NCBI RefSeq assembly: GCF_024519435.1
Contig: NZ_JALJRZ010000006.1
Location: 1 to 64,000 of the forward strand
Direction of reading: 5' to 3'
Source of the DNA: Terrabacter sp. Ter38
Lineage (GTDB): Bacteria > Actinomycetota > Actinomycetes > Actinomycetales > Dermatophilaceae
DNA: 64,000 nucleotides
Shown piece after piece: positions 35,302 to 47,199 of this stretch. A model generated the notes under the pieces. The model was not told the DNA's origin and ran no database searches. It worked only from the letters and a program-made list of their open reading frames with translations. Positions within the stretch are counted from its first letter, which is position 1, and the number at the start of each line of letters is the position of its first letter. The position numbers were made by a program, and so were the translations under genes.

Positions 35302-35309
<8 letters not shown>
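34458..35309 (-). CDS. xdhC: Xanthine dehydrogenase accessory protein XdhC
   Basis: 283 residues. Signature AKMVVSPDDTWGSIGGGNLEATAVE near residue 40 and HGQQCCGGEVSVLLEPLP (about 90) are those of XdhC/CoxI proteins; the C-terminal Rossmann domain starts VAIFGMGHVGAELARILS. XdhC binds molybdenum cofactor, helps its sulfuration and inserts it into XdhB. Start is GTG 35309 overlapping xdhB by eight bases; a GTG three codons later is also possible and has better spacing from GGGAGGG. Cytoplasmic. Confidence 0.93.
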
Positions 35310-39236
<3,927 letters not shown>

Positions 39237-39290: not shown

Positions 39291-39977
39291 TCAGGGTTGG
39301 ACGTGCAGGTCGAGGGTGTGCGCGCCGCGCACGACCTTCGTCGCGAGGTAGTGGGCGTTCGCGTCGGACAGGTGGACGCCGGTCGGGACGCGACGGGCCA
39401 CCGTGATCCCGAGCGCCCGCAGCTGCGCGGCCTTGTCGGGGTTGTTGCTGAGCAGCTCGACGCGGCTCACGCCCAGCGCACCGAGCATCTGCGCCGCGAC
39501 GGTGTAGTCCCGCTCGTCCTCGCCGTATCCGAGGGCGACGTTCGCCTCGTAGGTGTCGAGCCCCGCGTCCTGCAGCACGTAGGCGTCGAGCTTGGGATAG
39601 AGCCCGATGCCGCGCCCCTCCTGCCGCAGGTAGAGCAGGAACCCACCGCTCGCGTCGAGACGCTCGACCGACTCGCGCAGCTGCGCGCCGCAGTCGCACC
39701 GCCCGCTGCCGAAGACGTCCCCGGTCAGGCACTCGCTGTGCAGCCGGGTCGGCGTCGGGTCCCCGTCGCAGACTCCCGGTCCGGGTGCCGCCGAGCGGTT
39801 CCCGAGCCCGAGGGCCAGGTGCTCGCGGCCGTCGGCGAGCTCGTCGAAGGTGAAGACGCGTGCCGTCGTCGCGAAGCCGTCGGCGAAGGCGACCGGCACG
39901 AGCACGTGGGCGCGGATGCGGGCCGGTGGAAGAACCGTGGCACGAGCCGGCTCGCGACCCGGCGACCCGGCGATCAC
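39291..39977 (-). CDS. ribA: GTP cyclohydrolase II
   Basis: 228 residues from GTG 39977 (GTGA overlap with the reductase gene; a longer frame to 40106 adds Arg-rich sequence and is rejected). Zinc ligands Cys83, Cys94 and Cys96 in ECLTGDVFGSGRCDC, then RQEGRGIGLYPKLDAYVLQD. Tyr133 corresponds by my alignment to E. coli RibA Tyr105, the residue whose loss gives formylated-pyrimidine products in some paralogues, so normal GCH II chemistry (GTP to 2,5-diamino-6-ribosylamino-pyrimidinone phosphate, formate and PPi) is expected. It is a stand-alone GCH II, not the RibBA fusion typical of riboflavin operons, and no other rib gene except the reductase lies here. Confidence 0.9.
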   Translation of the reverse strand: MIAGSPGREPARATVLPPARIRAHVLVPVAFADGFATTARVFTFDELADGREHLALGLGNRSAAPGPGVCDGDPTPTRLHSECLTGDVFGSGRCDCGAQLRESVERLDASGGFLLYLRQEGRGIGLYPKLDAYVLQDAGLDTYEANVALGYGEDERDYTVAAQMLGALGVSRVELLSNNPDKAAQLRALGITVARRVPTGVHLSDANAHYLATKVVRGAHTLDLHVQP

Positions 39978-40669
39978 GCGCTCTCCCGGAAACGCGATGA
40001 CAACGCATACCTCAGCAGGACCACGTCGCCGATCTGGCGCACCTCGGCGAGCGTCGCCCGGCGGCCGGCGTTCCAGGGGTAGCGCCCGTCCCCGACGAAC
40101 CGGCACGCCGCCGAGTCTCCGACGAAGAAGGGCGCCACGACGAGCTGGAGCTCGTCGGCGAGGTCGTCGGTGAGCAGCTGCGTGTGCACGGTGCCGCCCC
40201 CCTCGACCATGAGCCGCTGCACCCCGCGGTCACCGAGGTCCTCGCAGACCCGGCGCATCGTCGCGGGACGACCGGCGTCGACGACGGCCGCGGCCGCACC
40301 GAGCCGTCCGCGTGCCTCGGGCACCACGTCGCTGGGGCAGTAGACGATCTTGTCCGCGCCGTCGGCCGCGAAGAAGCTCGCGGCGCAGTCGAGCTCGGCA
40401 TGTCTCGTCACCGTCACCTTCGTCGGCGACGGGGCGAGACCGCGGGCCACTCGTGCTGCCCGGCGCTCGGACGAGCGGACGAGCAGGCGCGGGTTGTCGT
40501 TGCGGATCGTGCTGGCGCCCACGAGGATCGCGTCGCTCGCGGCTCGCTCGCCGTCCACCCGGTCGAAGTCGGCGTCGTTGGACAGCATGAGACGCGTCGT
40601 GGTGCCCGCGTTGAGGTAGCCGTCGATCGACATGCCACAGCTGAGCAGAGTGTAGGGACGGTCAGCCAC
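39974..40669 (-). CDS. RibD C-terminal / dihydrofolate-reductase-like reductase
   Basis: 231 residues from GTG 40669. The reductase fold of RibD-C: PYTLLSCGMSIDGYLN, DAILVGASTIRNDNPRLLVR, VQRLMVEGGGTVHTQLL and LVVAPFFVGDSAACRF. No deaminase domain is attached. In riboflavin synthesis this domain reduces the ribosylamino pyrimidine to its ribitylamino form with NADPH; as partner of the adjacent GCH II it would act on the same product or a derivative. Overlaps the gene before by eight bases and ribA by a GTGA. Confidence 0.88.
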   Translation of the reverse strand: MADRPYTLLSCGMSIDGYLNAGTTTRLMLSNDADFDRVDGERAASDAILVGASTIRNDNPRLLVRSSERRAARVARGLAPSPTKVTVTRHAELDCAASFFAADGADKIVYCPSDVVPEARGRLGAAAAVVDAGRPATMRRVCEDLGDRGVQRLMVEGGGTVHTQLLTDDLADELQLVVAPFFVGDSAACRFVGDGRYPWNAGRRATLAEVRQIGDVVLLRYALSSRFRESA

Positions 40670-41636
40670 GGACGGCTCCTTCGGGTGTCAGCCCTGTCGG
40701 GGTGCGGGGGCCTCCGCGCCGCGACACGACGAGCAGTGCCGCGCCCGGCAGGGCTGCGACGAACGACATCACGCCGTAGACGACGGCGGTCGCCACTCCC
40801 CCGGCGACGCCGAGGCCGGCCACGCCGAACACCCAGGCCGCCACCCCTTCACGCGGTCCCCAGCCGGCGACGTTGAGCGGCAGCGCCATCGCCACGAGGA
40901 CGACGAGCGCGAGTGGCACGAGGTCGGACACGGGCGCCTCCACCCCGGCGCTACGGGCAGCCAGCACGAAGGTCGCGACGTGCCCGACGACGACGAGCGC
41001 CGACACCACGACGACCCCCGGCCACGTATGCCGTCCCAGCAGGCCGTGACGCACGTCGGCCGCCGCAATCCGCAGGCCTCGCGAGGCCCCAGCGAAAGGT
41101 TCAGGTGGCGTGCGATCCGATCGGCGCCGCCATGCTGCCCCGAACCCGACCAGGGCCGCGGTCCCGGCGACGAGGACCACCGTGGCCACAGGGGATCCGA
41201 CCGGCTGCAGTCTCGACGGGAGCAGCAGCACGGCGCCCAGCGTCAGCCCGAGGAGGACGACCTGACCGGCCGAGCGCTCCCACACGACTGACCGCACGCC
41301 GCGGCCGACGTCGCCGCCGTCGCGCCCGTGTCGGACGCCTCGGTGCACGTCGCCGAGCACCCCTCCGGGCAGGGTCACGTTGAGGAACTGCGACCGGTAG
41401 CACGCGGCGACGGCCGCGCGCAGGGACAGCTCGGTCCCGAGGCCTCGGGCCACGAGGACCCACCGCCACGCGCCGCAGACGGTCGTGACCACGGCGATGG
41501 CGGCCGCCGCAGCGACCGAACGGGCGTCGACCTGACGCAGGCCGTCGACGAAGGCGCCACCGCCGATGCGCCACACGAGGACGCCGAGGATCACGAGCCC
41601 CGCGAGGGGGCGCAGCCAGGACCGGTCGCGCTGCAT
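40662..41636 (-). CDS. UPF0104 / lysylphosphatidylglycerol-synthase-TM-like membrane protein
   Basis: 324 residues with about eight membrane segments. YRSQFLNVTLPGGVLGDVHRG (about 100) is the conserved core of the LPG_synthase_TM (flippase-like) family, and LNVAGWGPREGVAAWVFG (about 258) the second hallmark. Family members span flippase parts of MprF and many uncharacterised proteins beside glycosyltransferases, so movement of a lipid-linked glycoconjugate is a reasonable guess. ATG 41636 follows GGAGGAG directly, closer than usual; the frame is open further upstream, so the N-terminus is uncertain. Confidence 0.82.
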   Translation of the reverse strand: MQRDRSWLRPLAGLVILGVLVWRIGGGAFVDGLRQVDARSVAAAAAIAVVTTVCGAWRWVLVARGLGTELSLRAAVAACYRSQFLNVTLPGGVLGDVHRGVRHGRDGGDVGRGVRSVVWERSAGQVVLLGLTLGAVLLLPSRLQPVGSPVATVVLVAGTAALVGFGAAWRRRSDRTPPEPFAGASRGLRIAAADVRHGLLGRHTWPGVVVVSALVVVGHVATFVLAARSAGVEAPVSDLVPLALVVLVAMALPLNVAGWGPREGVAAWVFGVAGLGVAGGVATAVVYGVMSFVAALPGAALLVVSRRGGPRTPTGLTPEGAVRG

Positions 41637-41719
41637 CTCCTCCGCCCTTTCTGCCCCGGATCTGTCGAGAATCCGCCCGGGACCCCTGATGGTGACGACG
41701 TCCGGCTCCACGATCGGGT

Positions 41720-42781
41720 TCAGCGACCCCCTACCCTCTCGAGCACGGCCGACACGTGTCCTGCGGTCTCCGACCACGATGACAGGGTGTCGCGTCGCGC
41801 CATGGCATTCCGGCGCAGCCGGTCCCGCCGGTCCCCGTCGGTCAGCCACGACCGGAGCGCAGCCGCCAGCGCCTCGGGGCTGCCGGCAGGGACGAGCAGC
41901 CCGGGCTGCTCGTCGCCCGCCTGCCCGATCGCCTCGCGGACACCACCGACGTCGGTGGCGAGGACCGGGATGCCGCGGGCGAGTGCCTCGCTCACGACCA
42001 TCCCGTACGTCTCGACGTGGGAGGGCAGCACGAGGAGGTCGGCGGCGGCATACGTCCGCTCGAGGTCCCCACCGACCCGCGGGCCCACGAGGTGCGCGCG
42101 GTCCACGAGGCCGGCCGATGCGGCCAGCCGACGCAGCCCGTCCACGACGTCGGGCTCGCGCGTCAGGGCGCCGACGAGGACGCACGACCACGGGAGGTCC
42201 GCCACGAGCGCGAGCGCCGCGAGGAGGTCGGCCTGCCCCTTGAGCGCGGTCACCGCGCCGACACAGATCAGCCGCGCACCGTCGGGAGCGCCAGGCGCCA
42301 CGGGCGCCCGGTCGACCCCCGGCCGGGCGACGTGCACGGCAGCGGGGGTGAGGGCGTACGCGTCGAGCAGGACGTCCCGGGTCCACCCACTCGTCGTCAC
42401 GACGGCCGCGGCCGCAGTCAGGACCTTGCCCTCCGCCGCGGCCAGGTCCGGGTCTGCCACCCCGAGCGGCAGGTGGACGACGACGACGAGGCGGACGCGG
42501 TCCGCCTCGGGCACGAGGACGGCGTCGGCGGCCGACGCGATGAGGCCGTCGACGAGCAGCACCGACCCCGTGGGGACGGCCGCGACGACCTCGGCCAGAT
42601 GGGCCGTCGTTGCCGCGTCGGGGCGTGGCCACGGCCCGGGAACGGGGTGCTCGATCGGCCGCCACCCGAGGGCACGCAGGCCGTCGAGCACCCTGCGGTC
42701 GTAGGTGTTCCCGCCGCTCGGGAGCACGGGGTCGTCGATCCCGGCCGGGACGACGGCGTGGATCTCGCTCAGAGCTCGCAC
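41720..42781 (-). CDS. GT4-family glycosyltransferase
   Basis: 353 residues. GT-B fold with [19 protein letters not shown] (N-terminal glycine-rich motif), [47 protein letters not shown] and the donor-site E-x7-E segment [24 protein letters not shown]. It uses a nucleotide sugar in the cytoplasm. The GTG start lies within the end of the PTPS-like gene (13-base overlap), so these two are coupled. Acceptor unknown; the gene company suggests a pyrimidine or pterin-type molecule or a lipid. Confidence 0.9.
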
Positions 42782-43167
42782 TCGTAGCTCGCCCAGGCGA
42801 CGTGCGACTCGTGGAGGGTGACGGCGAGCCCGGTCACCCGGGCGGCGGCACCGCCGAGATCACCGGCGCGCACCCGACCCGCGACCCGCTCGGCGACGGT
42901 GCGGGCCAGCACCTCGGTCGAGGTGTTGACCCCGGCGAAGTCCGGCTCGTCGTCGAGATTGCGGTAGCCGAGGGCACCGACGACCTCGCGGACGTGCTGG
43001 GTCGCGAGTCCGATGTCGACGAGGATGTCGTCGTCGTCGAGCTCAGGCCCGCGGAACGTCACGTCGACGACGAACGTCGCCCCGTGCAACCGCTGCGCCG
43101 GACCGAACACCTCCCCCCGGAAGCTGTGCGCGATCATCATGTGGTCCCGGACGGTCACGCTGAACAT
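42769..43167 (-). CDS. PTPS/QueD-fold protein lacking canonical catalytic residues
   Basis: 132 residues of 6-pyruvoyltetrahydropterin synthase / 6-carboxytetrahydropterin synthase shape: [60 protein letters not shown] and [15 protein letters not shown]. Set against E. coli QueD: zinc His from AAH is kept (His14), the LHGH pair is LHGA (one zinc His lost), catalytic Cys27 is Ala, and the LDH dyad (Asp70-His71) is LGY. The substrate-anchoring Glu of the KET motif is kept (HES). So it probably binds a pterin-like ligand but does other chemistry or none. Family and divergence are seen directly; the function is not known. Confidence 0.82.
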
Positions 43168-43179
43168 CGGCTCCCCGCT

Positions 43180-44172
43180 TCAGTGGGTGGGTCGGTAGGA
43201 GATCGTGTGGCAGACGGCCTGCAGGGAGCCGTCCGCGAGGCGCGGCATGAGCGCGGGCAGCTCATCGAAGGGCGAGTCGCCGGTCAGCAAGGCGTCGAAG
43301 GCCGGGTCGCGCAGGAGGTCGAGCGCGAGCGCCAGCCGCTCGGCATACGTGTATCGCGAGCGCCTCGCTGCCGCAACGGAACCCACCTGACTTGCTCGGA
43401 TCCGCAGTCGCGACGAGTGGAACGACCCACCGAGCGACAGCTCGACCCGGCCGTCGCCGTACCAGCTGAGGTCGAGCACCGTCGCCTCCGGTGCGAGCAG
43501 GTCGAGGGAGAGCTGGAGCCCGGCACCCGTGGCGCTCGTGTGGACGACGAGGTCGTGGTCCCCGCGCGCGTCGGCGAGGTCGGTGGGTCGCGCGAAGCCG
43601 ACCCCGAGCGGTCCCGCCACCGCCTCCCGCGACGGGTCCACGTCGACGAGGGTCACCCGGCACCCGGGGATCCCGGCGAGCAGACGGGCGACGCAGCACC
43701 CGACCATCCCCGCGCCCACGACAGCGACCCGGTCACCGACCCGCGGTGCGGCGTCCCACAGGGCGTTGACGGCGGTCTCGACCGTGCCGGCGAGCACGGC
43801 CCGCCGCGCAGGCACGTCCTCGGGGACGACGACGACCGACCCGACGGGGACGACGTAGGCCGTCTGGTGCGGGTGCAGGCAGAAGACCGTCCTCCCGACG
43901 AGATCCGTCGGGCCCTCCTCGACGACGCCGACCCCGAGGTAGCCGTACTTGACCGGACCGGGGAAGTTCCCCTCCTGGTGCGGGGCGCGCATGACGGCGT
44001 ACTGGCCCTCGGGGACCTTCCCCCGGAAGACGAGCGTCTCGGTACCGCGACTCACCCCCGAGTGCAGCGCTCGCACCAGCACATCGCCCGACCCGGGAGG
44101 GGGCACGGTGACCGGGCGGATCTCGCCCCTGCCGGGCTCGACCACCCAGAACGCCCGCGCTTCGGTGGACAC
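43180..44172 (-). CDS. Zinc-independent medium-chain dehydrogenase, BchC-like
   Basis: 330 residues. MDR fold with GVSRGTETLVFRGKVP at the catalytic-domain start and PVKYGYLGVGVV, then VVGAGMVGCCVARLLA (Rossmann, about 145). The catalytic zinc ligands (C..H..E) and the structural cysteine quartet are missing. The segment layout is that of bacteriochlorophyllide dehydrogenase BchC-like proteins and of 'zinc-binding alcohol dehydrogenase' neighbours of PTPS-like genes in actinobacteria. First gene of the minus run; translated from a GTG at the predicted transcript start. Only 12 bases separate it from the PTPS-like gene. Confidence 0.85.
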   Translation of the reverse strand: MSTEARAFWVVEPGRGEIRPVTVPPPGSGDVLVRALHSGVSRGTETLVFRGKVPEGQYAVMRAPHQEGNFPGPVKYGYLGVGVVEEGPTDLVGRTVFCLHPHQTAYVVPVGSVVVVPEDVPARRAVLAGTVETAVNALWDAAPRVGDRVAVVGAGMVGCCVARLLAGIPGCRVTLVDVDPSREAVAGPLGVGFARPTDLADARGDHDLVVHTSATGAGLQLSLDLLAPEATVLDLSWYGDGRVELSLGGSFHSSRLRIRASQVGSVAAARRSRYTYAERLALALDLLRDPAFDALLTGDSPFDELPALMPRLADGSLQAVCHTISYRPTH

Positions 44173-44178
44173 GGGACC

Positions 44179-44184
44179 AGACTA
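44179..44184 (-). promoter_or_regulatory. -10 TAGTCT of a leaderless transcript
   Basis: On the minus strand TAGTCT runs 44184 to 44179 and is followed by six bases and the GTG start at 44172, so transcription should begin at the start codon. No -35 is evident. This would drive the ten-gene minus run. Confidence 0.5.
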
Positions 44185-44255
44185 GGGCTGCCCGTGAACT
44201 CCGGCGGTGGCGACGGCGTCCTTGGGTGAAACCTCTCAAGTCCGGTGGAGGCGCA

Positions 44256-45047
44256 GTGCGTCACGTGACCCCTCACGGCCCGGTCGCCGGGCTCGTCGGC
44301 GTGCTGACCCTGCTCGCCGGCCTGGGGCCGGCGACCGGACTCGGCGCTGCCGGCTGGACCGTCGGCCTGGCCTCGGGCGTGGCCCTCTGCACCCTGCTCA
44401 CGGTCGGGCTCGTCCTGGCCTCGCGCCCGCGCCTCCTGCCCGCCGACCGAGTCACGCTGTCGAGGGCGGTGCTCGTGTGCGGCGTCGCGGCCCTCGTGGC
44501 CGACGCCGTGGCGGGGACCGCGGGCACCGACGAGCCGACCAGCCTCCTCGTGGCCCTGGCCTCGGTGGCCCTCCTCCTCGATGCGGTGGACGGCCGGGTC
44601 GCGCGCCGCACCGGCACCGTCCACCCGCTCGGCGCGCGCTTCGACATGGAGACCGACGCCTTCCTCATCCTCGTCCTCAGCGTGGCCGTCGCCCGTGACC
44701 TCGGGTGGTGGGTGCTCGGCGTGGGGGTCGCTCGCTACCTCCTGCTGCTCGTCGCGCTCGCTGCCCGATGGGCGCCGTGGCTGCGCGGACAGGTCCCGGG
44801 ACGCCTGTGGCGCAAGGCGATCGCGGCCTACCAGGGCATCGTCCTCACGGTGGCCGCTGCCGGCATCGTGCCCGCCGTGGCCGCCTCGGTCGCCGTGGCA
44901 GCCGGGCTCGCACTGCTCGTCCTCTCGTTCGGCACGGAGGTCCTCACGCTGCGGCGGATGGCGGCGTCCCGACGCCACGAGGTCGAGGCACTCGCTCCCT
45001 GGCCGCTCGTCGAGCAGACGCCCGTCGACGCGCGCGTGCTGCCGTGA
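44256..45047 (+). CDS. CDP-alcohol phosphatidyltransferase family membrane protein
   Basis: 263 residues from GTG 44256, four bases after GGAGG (44247-44251); GTG 44226 also keeps the frame but lacks a ribosome-binding site. The family motif D-G-x2-A-R-x8-G-x3-D-x3-D is present as DAVDGRVAR, then GARFDMETDA (about residues 112-140), with six or so membrane helices. These enzymes transfer a phosphoalcohol between CDP-linked and hydroxyl acceptors, making phospholipids or phosphodiester-linked polar heads. It is divergent from the dehydrogenase by 83 bases and overlaps the sulfatase-fold gene by GTGA. Confidence 0.88.
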   Translation: MRHVTPHGPVAGLVGVLTLLAGLGPATGLGAAGWTVGLASGVALCTLLTVGLVLASRPRLLPADRVTLSRAVLVCGVAALVADAVAGTAGTDEPTSLLVALASVALLLDAVDGRVARRTGTVHPLGARFDMETDAFLILVLSVAVARDLGWWVLGVGVARYLLLLVALAARWAPWLRGQVPGRLWRKAIAAYQGIVLTVAAAGIVPAVAASVAVAAGLALLVLSFGTEVLTLRRMAASRRHEVEALAPWPLVEQTPVDARVLP

Positions 45048-46714
45048 CGTCTCCGACCCGGGCCAGGACCGGCCGCCGCGTCGCCGACGGCATCCTCAGC
45101 ACCCTCGCCGTCCTGCTCGTCTGGGTCGCGCTCGTCGCTCCCGACCCGGCAGTCGGCTGGTCGCCGACACCGTTGGCCCTGCTCCGGATCCCCGTCGAGG
45201 CCCTGGTCCTCGTGGCCGGGCTCCTGCTCCTGCGCGGGGTGGCTGCGCGGTCCTTCGCGATCGCGGTCGGACTCGCCCTCGGGGTCCTCCTCGTCGTCCG
45301 GGTCCTCGACGCGGCCTTCCTCGCCACGCTCTACCGGACGTTCAACCCGCTCACCGACTGGCGCTACGCGGGGTCGGCCACCGACCTCATCGGCGACTCG
45401 GCCGGCCCGGTGACCGCCGTGCTGGCCGTCGTCGCGGCGGGGCTGCTCCTGCTCGGCATCGTCGTGCTGACCCCCTTGGCCCTACGACGTGTCGGGCGGG
45501 TCGTCGAACGCCACCGGACCGGAGCGATGCGCGCCCTGGCGGCCGGGGCCGTCGCCTGGGGCGTCTGCGCCTCGCTCGGGCTCGGCGTCACGGCCGACCT
45601 GCCCGGCGCCTCGTCGAGCTCGGCGGCCCTCGCCGGCCGCGAGTTCACGTCGGTGCGCGACGGCCTCCACGACCAGGACGTCTTCGCCGCGCAGATCGCC
45701 GTCGACCCGTACCGCGACACCGCGCCGGGCAGCCTGCTGACCGCATTGCGCGGCAAGGACGTCGTCGTCGTCTTCGTCGAGAGCTACGGGAAGGTCGCCG
45801 TCGACGAGAGCCCCGACGTGGCAAGGGCGCTCACGGCCGGGACGAACGGGCTGGAGGAGTCCGGCTACACGACGCGCAGCGCGTGGCTCACGTCCCCGAC
45901 CTTCGGGGGGATCAGCTGGCTGGCCCACTCCACCCTCCAGTCCGGACTCTGGGTGAGCAGTCAGCAGCGCTACGACCAGCTCCTCGACACGGCAACGGCG
46001 GCCACCCACCGGCTCACCCTCGCGGGTGCCTTCGCCCAGGCCGGGTGGCGCACCGTCGACGTCATCCCGGCCAACCGTCACGACTGGCCCGAGGGCAAGG
46101 CCTTCTACGGCTACGACACCGTCTACGACGCACGCACCCTGGGCTACGCCGGCCCCGGCTTCGGCTACGCCCCGATGCCCGACCAGTACACGCTGTCGGC
46201 CTTCGACCGGCTCGAGCTGCAGCGCCGCCCACCCGGTCGACGGCCGCCGGTCATGGCCGAGATCGACCTCGTGACGAGCCACGTCCCCTGGGCGCCGCTG
46301 CCGCGACTGCTCGACTGGGCGGCGATCGGCGACGGCTCCCCCTACCTCGCCCAGGCGGGGCTCGCGACGCCACGCGACGTGGTGTGGAGCAGCGCCGAGA
46401 GGGTGCGGGCGGCATACGGCCAGACGGTCGCGTACTCCCTCGACAGCGTCGTGTCGTTCCTGCGCGCGACCCACGACGACGACCTCGTCGTCCTCGTGCT
46501 CGGCGACCACCAGCCGGTCAGCATCGTCTCGGGCGAGCACGCCGGGCACGACGTGCCGGTCAGCATCGTCTCCCGCGACCCGGCCGTGCTCGCGCGCATC
46601 TCCTCGTGGGGCTGGCAGGACGGGCTGCGGCCCGGACCCGCGGCTCCGGTGTGGCCCATGGACCGCTTCCGCGACCGCTTCCTCACCGCCTACGGCCCTT
46701 CGGGCGGCGGCTGA
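45044..46714 (+). CDS. Membrane-anchored sulfatase/LtaS-fold hydrolase or transferase
   Basis: 556 residues from GTG 45044. Four to five membrane helices fill residues 1-180 and an extracytoplasmic alkaline-phosphatase-superfamily domain follows: VVVVFVESYGKVAV, TRSAWLTSPTFGGISWLAHSTLQSG (probable nucleophile Thr/Ser), DVIPANRHDWPEG, MAEIDLVTSHVPWAP and VLVLGDHQPVS (metal-binding Asp-His). This is the layout of LtaS and phosphoethanolamine or phosphoglycerol transferases that act on envelope lipids and glycans outside the membrane. With the CDP-alcohol transferase it suggests a phosphodiester-containing envelope compound. The exact reaction is not readable. Confidence 0.85.
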   Translation: MTSPTRARTGRRVADGILSTLAVLLVWVALVAPDPAVGWSPTPLALLRIPVEALVLVAGLLLLRGVAARSFAIAVGLALGVLLVVRVLDAAFLATLYRTFNPLTDWRYAGSATDLIGDSAGPVTAVLAVVAAGLLLLGIVVLTPLALRRVGRVVERHRTGAMRALAAGAVAWGVCASLGLGVTADLPGASSSSAALAGREFTSVRDGLHDQDVFAAQIAVDPYRDTAPGSLLTALRGKDVVVVFVESYGKVAVDESPDVARALTAGTNGLEESGYTTRSAWLTSPTFGGISWLAHSTLQSGLWVSSQQRYDQLLDTATAATHRLTLAGAFAQAGWRTVDVIPANRHDWPEGKAFYGYDTVYDARTLGYAGPGFGYAPMPDQYTLSAFDRLELQRRPPGRRPPVMAEIDLVTSHVPWAPLPRLLDWAAIGDGSPYLAQAGLATPRDVVWSSAERVRAAYGQTVAYSLDSVVSFLRATHDDDLVVLVLGDHQPVSIVSGEHAGHDVPVSIVSRDPAVLARISSWGWQDGLRPGPAAPVWPMDRFRDRFLTAYGPSGGG

Positions 46715-46809: not shown

Positions 46810-47199
46810 ATGAGACTCCGAGGCGTGGGAGCGGTGGCGTTGCTCGTCTCCGCCGCCGTCCACCTCTACCTGTGGTTCGACGGGGTGCGCAACCAGAGCG
46901 TGGGCCCGATGTTCCTCATCAACGTCGTGGCGGGGGTCGTCATCGCGATCCTGCTGCTGCGCTGGGAGCACTGGGTCCCCGCGTTCCTGACCGCCGGTTT
47001 CGGGGCCGCGACGCTCGGGGCGTTCGTCATCGCGTCCACCGTCGGACTGCTCGGCGTGCACACCGTTTGGGCGGGCGGGTCGGTCTGGACGGCCGCGATC
47101 GCCGAGGTGGTCTGCATCGTCGTCGGCGGCCTCCTGCTGCTGCATGGGCGGTCGGTGGCGCCCCAGCTGACGCAACCCGCCAAGCGGCACGCCGCCTGA
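46810..47199 (+). CDS. Small four-helix membrane protein, unknown function
   Basis: 129 residues; ATG 46810 follows AGGAG at normal spacing. Four hydrophobic stretches (about 5-22, 33-52, 57-80, 88-112), conserved-looking starts VSAAVHLYLWFDGVR and a basic C-terminus. I do not recognise a named family; similar short proteins are widespread in actinobacteria. The gap 46715-46809 holds only its ribosome-binding site and gives no sign of a promoter I can name. Confidence 0.75.
   Translation: MRLRGVGAVALLVSAAVHLYLWFDGVRNQSVGPMFLINVVAGVVIAILLLRWEHWVPAFLTAGFGAATLGAFVIASTVGLLGVHTVWAGGSVWTAAIAEVVCIVVGGLLLLHGRSVAPQLTQPAKRHAA

Follow-up and report, generated by a model that had tools for sequence, protein, structure and literature searches.

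Why would an actinomycete that possesses a complete riboflavin operon also keep a GTP cyclohydrolase II (GCH II) and a RibD-C-type reductase beside a PTPS-fold protein, a dehydrogenase, a glycosyltransferase and several lipid and membrane genes? The question is raised by a block of eight genes at positions 39291..46714 of a 64,000-nucleotide stretch of Terrabacter sp. Ter38 (NZ_JALJRZ010000006.1, positions 1 to 64,000), referred to here as the window, which forms contig C51 of a 100% complete genome of 4.83 Mb. We find that the block is a real, conserved pathway, and on balance we think it probable that this pathway is a dedicated one, leading from GTP through a diaminopyrimidine to a pterin-like glycoconjugate with an envelope-lipid module, and separate from both riboflavin and coenzyme F420 synthesis. 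Its product, the chemistry of the dehydrogenase and PTPS-IV proteins and the link to lipid are things that we infer. An initial annotation of the stretch had proposed that a GTP-derived heterocycle is made here, glycosylated and exported or built into an envelope lipid, and this idea is right in outline, with the product a prediction.

Organization of the gene block

All eight genes were confirmed where the initial annotation had placed them, with Pfam matches above cut-off for GTP_cyclohydro2, RibD_C, LPG_synthase_TM, Glycos_transf_1, PTPS and CDP-OH_P_transf. They do form two divergent units as it had described, although the overlap that it saw throughout each unit is not universal, as gaps of about 83 nt and 12 nt separate the GT4 gene from the flippase-like gene and the dehydrogenase gene from the PTPS gene, respectively. 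The minus-strand unit reads dehydrogenase, PTPS, GT4, flippase-like protein, RibD-C reductase and GCH II, and the plus-strand unit CDP-alcohol transferase, sulfatase-fold protein and then a small hydrophobic protein. The most likely start of GCH II is the GTG at 39977, giving a 4-nt overlap with the reductase stop; the flippase-like gene start was refined to the ATG at 41636, and for the sulfatase-fold gene we adopted a start at 45044, again with a 4-nt overlap, here with the CDP-alcohol transferase stop.

39291..39977, minus strand: Tyr-type GTP cyclohydrolase II with all three zinc Cys; Pfam PF00925, 176 bits
39974..40669, minus strand: RibD-C-type reductase, closest to 2,5-diamino-6-ribosylaminopyrimidinone 5'-phosphate reductases; PF01872 and a profile match to PDB 6p8c
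40662..41636, minus strand: flippase-like LPG_synthase_TM (UPF0104) membrane protein; PF03706, 110 bits
41720..42781, minus strand: GT4 glycosyltransferase; PF00534 and PDB profile matches
42769..43167, minus strand: protein of the PTPS-IV (FGPAQ) subfamily, orthologous to SCO6650 / PDB 3D7J; PF01242 and 3d7j
43180..44172, minus strand: BchC-like dehydrogenase of the MDR family, regular companion of PTPS-IV; NCBIfam below cut-off, alignment, co-occurrence
44173..44225, no strand: 53-bp divergent intergenic region, presumed to hold promoters; gap between the two units
44226..45047, plus strand: CDP-alcohol phosphatidyltransferase, catalytic motif intact; PF01066, 44 bits, and motif
45044..46714, plus strand: membrane-anchored sulfatase-fold (LtaS/LtaP-like) protein; weak match to PDB 4uop and residue pattern
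46810..47199, plus strand: small hydrophobic protein of 129 aa, possibly the end of the plus-strand unit; conserved position in close relatives

Conservation and distribution of the block

The neighbourhood of PTPS-IV was surveyed at 112 loci from Actinomycetota and plasmids, 93 of them (the window included) together with 19 plasmid loci, all of which carry PTPS-IV by selection. Block genes were found by profile searches of six-frame open reading frames; five copies (L035-L038 and L050, copies of L058, L053, L055, L054 and L101) and one 200-base stub (L039) were left out before counting. Since contig ends cut some loci, counts of absence are upper bounds. The dehydrogenase is present at 109 of the 112 loci, GT4 at 108, the flippase-like gene at 98, the CDP-alcohol transferase at 96, a methyltransferase at 93, GCH II at 90, RibD-C at 68, a creatininase-family gene at 48 and the sulfatase-fold gene at 32 (GT4 stood at 109 by profile, before we dropped a 28.8-bit match of L139 that lies on an annotated glgA). 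An arrangement of this kind is far beyond chance, and the lack of conservation among related genomes that the initial annotation had named as fatal to its proposal was not what the survey returned.

At least 588 sites encode PTPS-IV relatives, and among the best 80, which were kept, the named loci skew towards Streptomyces (42/80) and Micromonospora (19/80). The closest named matches of the window PTPS gene are in Terracoccus (96%) and Terrabacter (92%). PTPS-IV was found in 91 of 199 sampled genomes of the genus of genome G079, which we take to be Streptomyces because in 7 of 7 blocks compared the best match is a named Streptomyces locus, with 82-88% DNA identity; nearly half of the sampled Streptomyces genomes would thus carry it. 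In a sample of the phylum, 57 of 396 genomes match PTPS at E 1e-12, and 10 of these score at least 120 bits; the remaining 47 (at most 93 bits) may be other PTPS types.

Plasmids gave 21 matching records, and the 19 that were read (H6 and H10 lie outside this set) come from Streptomyces, Rhizobiaceae, Rhodobacterales, Methylosinus, Thiodictyon, Arthrobacter, Microbacterium and Haloarcula; five had no usable annotation and were assessed by profile only. A small set consisting of dehydrogenase, PTPS-IV, methyltransferase and RibD-C is found in Rhodobacteraceae SC52. The Haloarcula plasmid locus (L141, 1213-10335) holds a creatininase-family gene, a CDP-alcohol transferase, the dehydrogenase, a distant PTPS and GT4, as well as methyltransferase-like and sulfatase-like genes that match Pfam under cut-off only, and no GCH II was found within 8 kb of it, the hydrolase being present.

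The PTPS-IV protein and its dehydrogenase partner

The window PTPS-like protein is a member of the PTPS-IV (FGPAQ) subfamily of COG0720 and, as judged from its sequence, the ortholog of Streptomyces coelicolor SCO6650. It carries the FGPAQ signature, and the pattern FG[PS]AQxxHGA is fitted at 110 of the 112 loci (with S for P in L134), the exceptions being L090 (FGPAR) and L141. Canonical PTPS and QueD enzymes use a catalytic Cys, an Asp-His pair and three zinc-binding His residues. By comparison with canonical PTPS (PDB ID 2g64), in the window protein the catalytic Cys is replaced by Ala24, the Asp-His pair by x-Tyr68 and the HGH zinc motif by HGA, and a second residue comparison, against a QueD row, likewise indicates that the protein lacks this catalytic set. 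Its match to TIGR03367 reaches 41.6 bits against a cut-off of 89.25. By contrast, a 24-row profile finds PDB ID 3d7j ('Uncharacterized protein SCO6650') at E 1.9e-66, with the next chain at 1e-6. His14, His28, Tyr68, Glu85 and Glu120 are invariant in all 24 aligned rows, among them Glu120, which is the pterin-binding-type Glu. The Haloarcula relative, which is not in this alignment, lacks Tyr68 and has HSHH at the site where the others have HGAT.

This neighbourhood had already been noticed in part in 2017. The AGeNNT study (PMC5445326) names the FGPAQ proteins PTPS-IV and reports a cluster of 561 sequences beside PF00925 and PF01872, with the PF00925 neighbour interpreted as FolE2 / GCH I, and Zallot 2016 (PMC5041015) places PTPS-IV in archaeal F420 synthesis, citing unpublished work. 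Signature and neighbours are those of our block, although the parts of these papers on which we draw describe no pathway with dehydrogenase, GT4, lipid genes and two GCH types. The initial annotation had called the pathway undescribed, and this now has to be narrowed: earlier papers already describe the subfamily together with its GCH II/RibD-C neighbours, whereas the product of the block is not described in the openly licensed literature searched.

The dehydrogenase follows PTPS-IV closely. None of its NCBIfam matches reaches the cut-off (40.6 bits for BchC), but an alignment of 22 rows identifies structures of MDR dehydrogenases, at E 4.8e-15 for the best. Among 58 relative genomes, 21 are positive for PTPS-IV and 37 negative (G038, at 21 bits, was scored negative); orthologs of the dehydrogenase (at least 435 bits) occur in the same 21 genomes and, at E 1e-60, in none of the 37 others (Fisher p 3e-16, ignoring relatedness).

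On three Streptomyces plasmids (L134, L149 and L150) no other gene of the block accompanies PTPS-IV; its neighbours there are cupin, MBL-fold and regulator genes, including MEKHLA on two of the plasmids.

Separation from riboflavin synthesis

The window GCH II, whose activity is predicted, keeps the zinc Cys residues, the catalytic Arg and the Tyr at the E. coli 105 position, in an alignment with an E. coli row. For the reductase, profile searches single out a diaminopyrimidine reductase as the nearest solved structure: an 18-row profile places the DARPP reductase 6p8c (PDB; E 5.8e-44) ahead of RibD chains, and its best NCBIfam model is TIGR01508, at 121.2 bits against an equivalog cut-off of 186.45. 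A second GCH II domain lies on contig C52 within a complete rib set of RibD (deaminase + reductase), RibE, RibBA and RibH, so that the GCH II/RibD-C pair of the block is extra. The initial annotation, which had set the pair apart from riboflavin synthesis and would have returned it there had the genome held no other riboflavin operon, is thus upheld, as is its remark on missing riboflavin genes, since no deaminase, DHBP synthase, riboflavin synthase or lumazine synthase domain was detected among the eight proteins scanned. Rfam gave no match in the window at the gathering threshold, and therefore no FMN riboswitch at that threshold. In the whole genome ten RibD-C-family matches exceed the cut-off (contigs C11, C22, C43, C50, C51 and C52), one of them in the rib operon and one in the block.

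Two candidate entry routes

At the 90 loci with GCH II (the 22 loci without a detected GCH II fall outside this count), the residue at the position of E. coli Tyr105 is coupled to the presence of the creatininase-family gene. Tyr is found in 43 loci, none of which has the gene, and a non-Tyr residue (Met in 44, His in 2, Cys in 1) in 47, and there the gene is present every time. RibD-C is present at all 43 Tyr-type loci and at 13 of the 47 non-Tyr loci. We take SCO6655 of S. coelicolor to be a natural Tyr-to-Met variant of GCH II that releases a still-formylated product. Were the creatininase-family hydrolase a deformylase, both routes would yield one diaminopyrimidine, and the sequence pattern is consistent with two such routes to a single deformylated compound. 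Similar to the window enzyme, SCO6655 is an extra copy of the GCH II family; the window differs in having a Tyr-type GCH II and no creatininase-family gene.

Putative sugar, methyl and lipid functions

In PDB profile searches GT4 matches Tll1590 (E 1e-40), the D-inositol 3-phosphate glycosyltransferase 7qsg (1.9e-32) and the tetrahydrobiopterin glucosyltransferase 5ze7 (9.5e-15). The last is a GT4-type enzyme that glycosylates a pterin, although Tll1590 and MshA-type chains outscore it for the block protein. The methyltransferase of the relatives matches generic S-adenosylmethionine-dependent folds only; the window locus is without one, and a single query found none in its own genome.

The CDP-alcohol transferase motif (DGxxARx8Gx3Dx3D) is intact in 92 of 96 loci, window included. 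For the sulfatase-fold protein no Pfam or NCBIfam match was obtained at E 0.001, and three relatives reach 23.8, 23.1 and 16.1 bits for PF00884 against a cut-off of 25. A 16-row profile matches the lipoteichoic acid primase 4uop weakly (E 6.5e-4 over the whole chain, in two stretches each non-significant alone). In these 16 rows E246, D488 and H489 are invariant and T286 nearly so. The Glu, Thr and Asp-His residues presumably represent the metal and nucleophile set of the alkaline-phosphatase superfamily. The gene is an accessory one, in keeping with its presence at 32 loci.

A probable counterpart in Streptomyces coelicolor

In Streptomyces tendae the genes run PTPS, GT4, methyltransferase, flippase-like protein, creatininase-family protein and GCH II. 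Because this order fits, and because the ends are named by PDB ID 3d7j (SCO6650) and PMC2853524 (SCO6655), SCO6650-SCO6655, together with flanking genes, would be the Streptomyces form of the block, and SCO6652 would by gene count be the methyltransferase. In the data consulted from PMC2853524, SCO6655 (r -0.61) and SCO2687 (r -0.52) are among the genes expressed opposite to predicted flux (riboflavin flux for SCO6655), and most genes of that anticorrelation table are upregulated in stationary phase. The values that we took from PMC3610822 give SCO6652 log2 changes of 0.8, 4.3 and 4.1 at 24, 48 and 72 h relative to the first mycelium, such that its rise (4.3 and 4.1) falls in the aerial and spore stages.

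Proposed pathway

On the basis of family membership and residues, GCH II would open GTP to 2,5-diamino-6-ribosylaminopyrimidinone 5'-phosphate. In Streptomyces-type loci the same intermediate would be reached in two steps, with a Met-, His- or Cys-type GCH giving a formylated product from which the creatininase-family hydrolase would remove formate, and the RibD-C reductase, where present, would give the ribityl form. MDR dehydrogenase and PTPS-IV, which are hardly ever found apart, may then act as a pair on a 2-amino-4-oxo ring compound. In the mechanism of GCH I a 5-amino group attacks a ketone, and this is our model for ring closure: speculatively, the dehydrogenase could oxidise a side-chain hydroxyl to a carbonyl onto which the 5-amino group would close, giving a dihydropterin without GCH I. 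PTPS-IV might grip the ring through its invariant Glu and complete the chemistry in a manner that differs from QueD and PTPS, because the catalytic Cys and Asp-His are missing. GT4 would add a sugar and, in most relatives, the methyltransferase would methylate the compound. Co-location suggests that attachment of the conjugate to a membrane lipid, and its movement or transfer to the outside, would fall to the flippase-like protein and the CDP-alcohol transferase, joined in some lineages by the LtaS-like enzyme.

Carried one step further, this would predict a class of lipid-anchored pterin or ribityl-diaminopyrimidine glycoconjugates, made by a GCH I-independent route in bacteria and haloarchaea and present in the envelope at late Streptomyces developmental stages, an extension that we offer tentatively and with considerable doubt. 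If the main pathway proposed above is right, PTPS-IV, whose S. coelicolor structure 3D7J is titled uncharacterised, would gain a pathway, and envelope-associated and probably UV-absorbing conjugates common to bacteria and archaea would await discovery. It would also explain why Streptomyces keep a GCH II homolog that, as we understand it, stops at the formylated product.

Several observations count against the pathway as drawn here, or against single steps of it. Pterin glucosyltransferases resemble the GT4 less than MshA-type enzymes do. In the tree of GCH II (a quick method, with long-branch warnings) the Tyr105-position residue and the hydrolase each change once, and the 90 loci therefore represent one event and lend no independent support. 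Proteins of three relatives place the hydrolase best with MftE and weakly with ArfB (NF033501: 39, 37 and 21 bits against a cut-off of 180), all under cut-offs; by model score it is not an ArfB, and its suggested role as a deformylase comes from gene context. RibD-C went undetected at 34 of the 47 creatininase-type loci and so is not obligatory at the locus, and in six genomes without a locus RibD-C the match elsewhere to a Streptomyces copy is at most 46.5 bits. The divergent reductase of the Actinoplanes block itself scores 77 bits against the Streptomyces copy, and a distant paralog elsewhere is thus possible; either reduction is not always needed or such a paralog performs it. GCH II was not detected at 22 of the 112 loci, 12 of which have RibD-C and could use the housekeeping enzyme. 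The lone Streptomyces plasmid copies of PTPS-IV show that the protein has a second context. For the sulfatase-fold protein, the weak 4uop match is joined by a poor structure model (pLDDT 52.5). Finally, L136, L139 and L142 lack both the CDP-alcohol transferase and the flippase-like gene, and the lipid module may therefore be separable; as the genes for the later steps vary most among loci, the lipid link is the weakest part of our proposal.

Alternative explanations

The alternative that survives best, which we regard as possible but rather unlikely, divides the block into two adjoining modules with separate products, GCH II, reductase, dehydrogenase, PTPS-IV, GT4 and methyltransferase making a soluble pterin or pyrimidine glycoside, and the CDP-alcohol transferase, flippase-like and sulfatase-fold proteins an envelope lipid of their own. 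The divergent units of the window would fit such a division, as would the retention of PTPS-IV, dehydrogenase and methyltransferase in L136, L139 and L142 and the restriction of the sulfatase-fold gene to 32 loci. However, the CDP-alcohol transferase and the flippase-like gene accompany PTPS-IV at 96 and 98 of the 112 loci, the latter in the same direction as GT4 and downstream of it in most of the 93 loci, and the loci of Thiodictyon, Microbacterium and Haloarcula, as well as six rhizobial ones, also have the CDP-alcohol transferase.

Ribitylaminopyrimidines lie on the route to F0, and a role of PTPS-IV and its partners in the synthesis of coenzyme F420 (a deazaflavin) deserves attention for this reason as well as for the published statement on PTPS-IV and this archaeal cofactor, in the part of PMC5041015 cited above. 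We consider it very improbable, since CofH passes its cut-off in 3 of the 21 genomes with PTPS-IV and in 6 of the 37 without (Fisher p 1), and at E 1e-30 in 5 of 21 and 8 of 37 (Fisher p 1), with no CofH match in the complete genome of the window itself. GT4, CDP-alcohol transferase and methyltransferase are not known as F420 genes. For these 58 genomes the F420 role is disfavoured and not supported. An equally slight chance attaches to the block supplying riboflavin precursors as a backup or in a regulated way: GCH II and RibD-C are riboflavin-type enzymes, but the complete operon on C52, the lack of other rib domains among the block proteins and of an FMN riboswitch match in the window, and, as far as the consulted part of PMC2853524 goes, the anticorrelation of the SCO6655 transcript with predicted riboflavin flux all speak against it. 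The database name 6-carboxytetrahydropterin synthase, the PTPS fold and the 41.6-bit TIGR03367 match would point to 7-deazapurine or queuosine-type synthesis, but such a pathway is scarcely credible given that this match is under the 89.25-bit cut-off, that the CxxxHGH motif is lost and that no QueE, QueC or GCH I name occurs among the features of 14 annotated plasmid loci, whole genomes not having been searched for QueE/QueC.

Returning to a dedicated pterin-like glycoconjugate pathway, two known systems offer partial precedents. The pepteridine cluster of Photorhabdus (PMC5384830) makes a pterin-type specialised metabolite using a PTPS homolog, yet it relies on GCH I and nonribosomal peptide synthetase-like enzymes, and no GCH II, GT4 or lipid genes are named in the parts of that paper covered. 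The 8-azaguanine ptn pathway (PMC7109123) is, in the parts consulted, a specialised use of a GTP-derived 2,5-diaminopyrimidine that differs in its GCH I-like PtnA, its use of nitric oxide and its product class.

Neighbouring genes

The small hydrophobic protein at 46810-47199 matches no Pfam family over cut-off; a tblastn search of the loci from L035 on placed it at the corresponding position in 8 loci once duplicates are removed (12 when they are counted). Genes of the mdoH-type glucan glucosyltransferase adjoin the block in L136 (7079-8881, Methylosinus plasmid) and L142 (6098-8011, Neorhizobium plasmid). The xanthine-dehydrogenase-like genes that adjoin GCH II in the window (35302-39236, minus strand) were considered as a pterin hydroxylase and rejected as block members, because at 90% identity or more they stand beside the block only in the nearest relatives, L053 and L054 (and their copies L036 and L038). 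Close to the blocks of L064, L067, L068, L121 and L076 there are much weaker homologs, with 26-34% identity to these genes.

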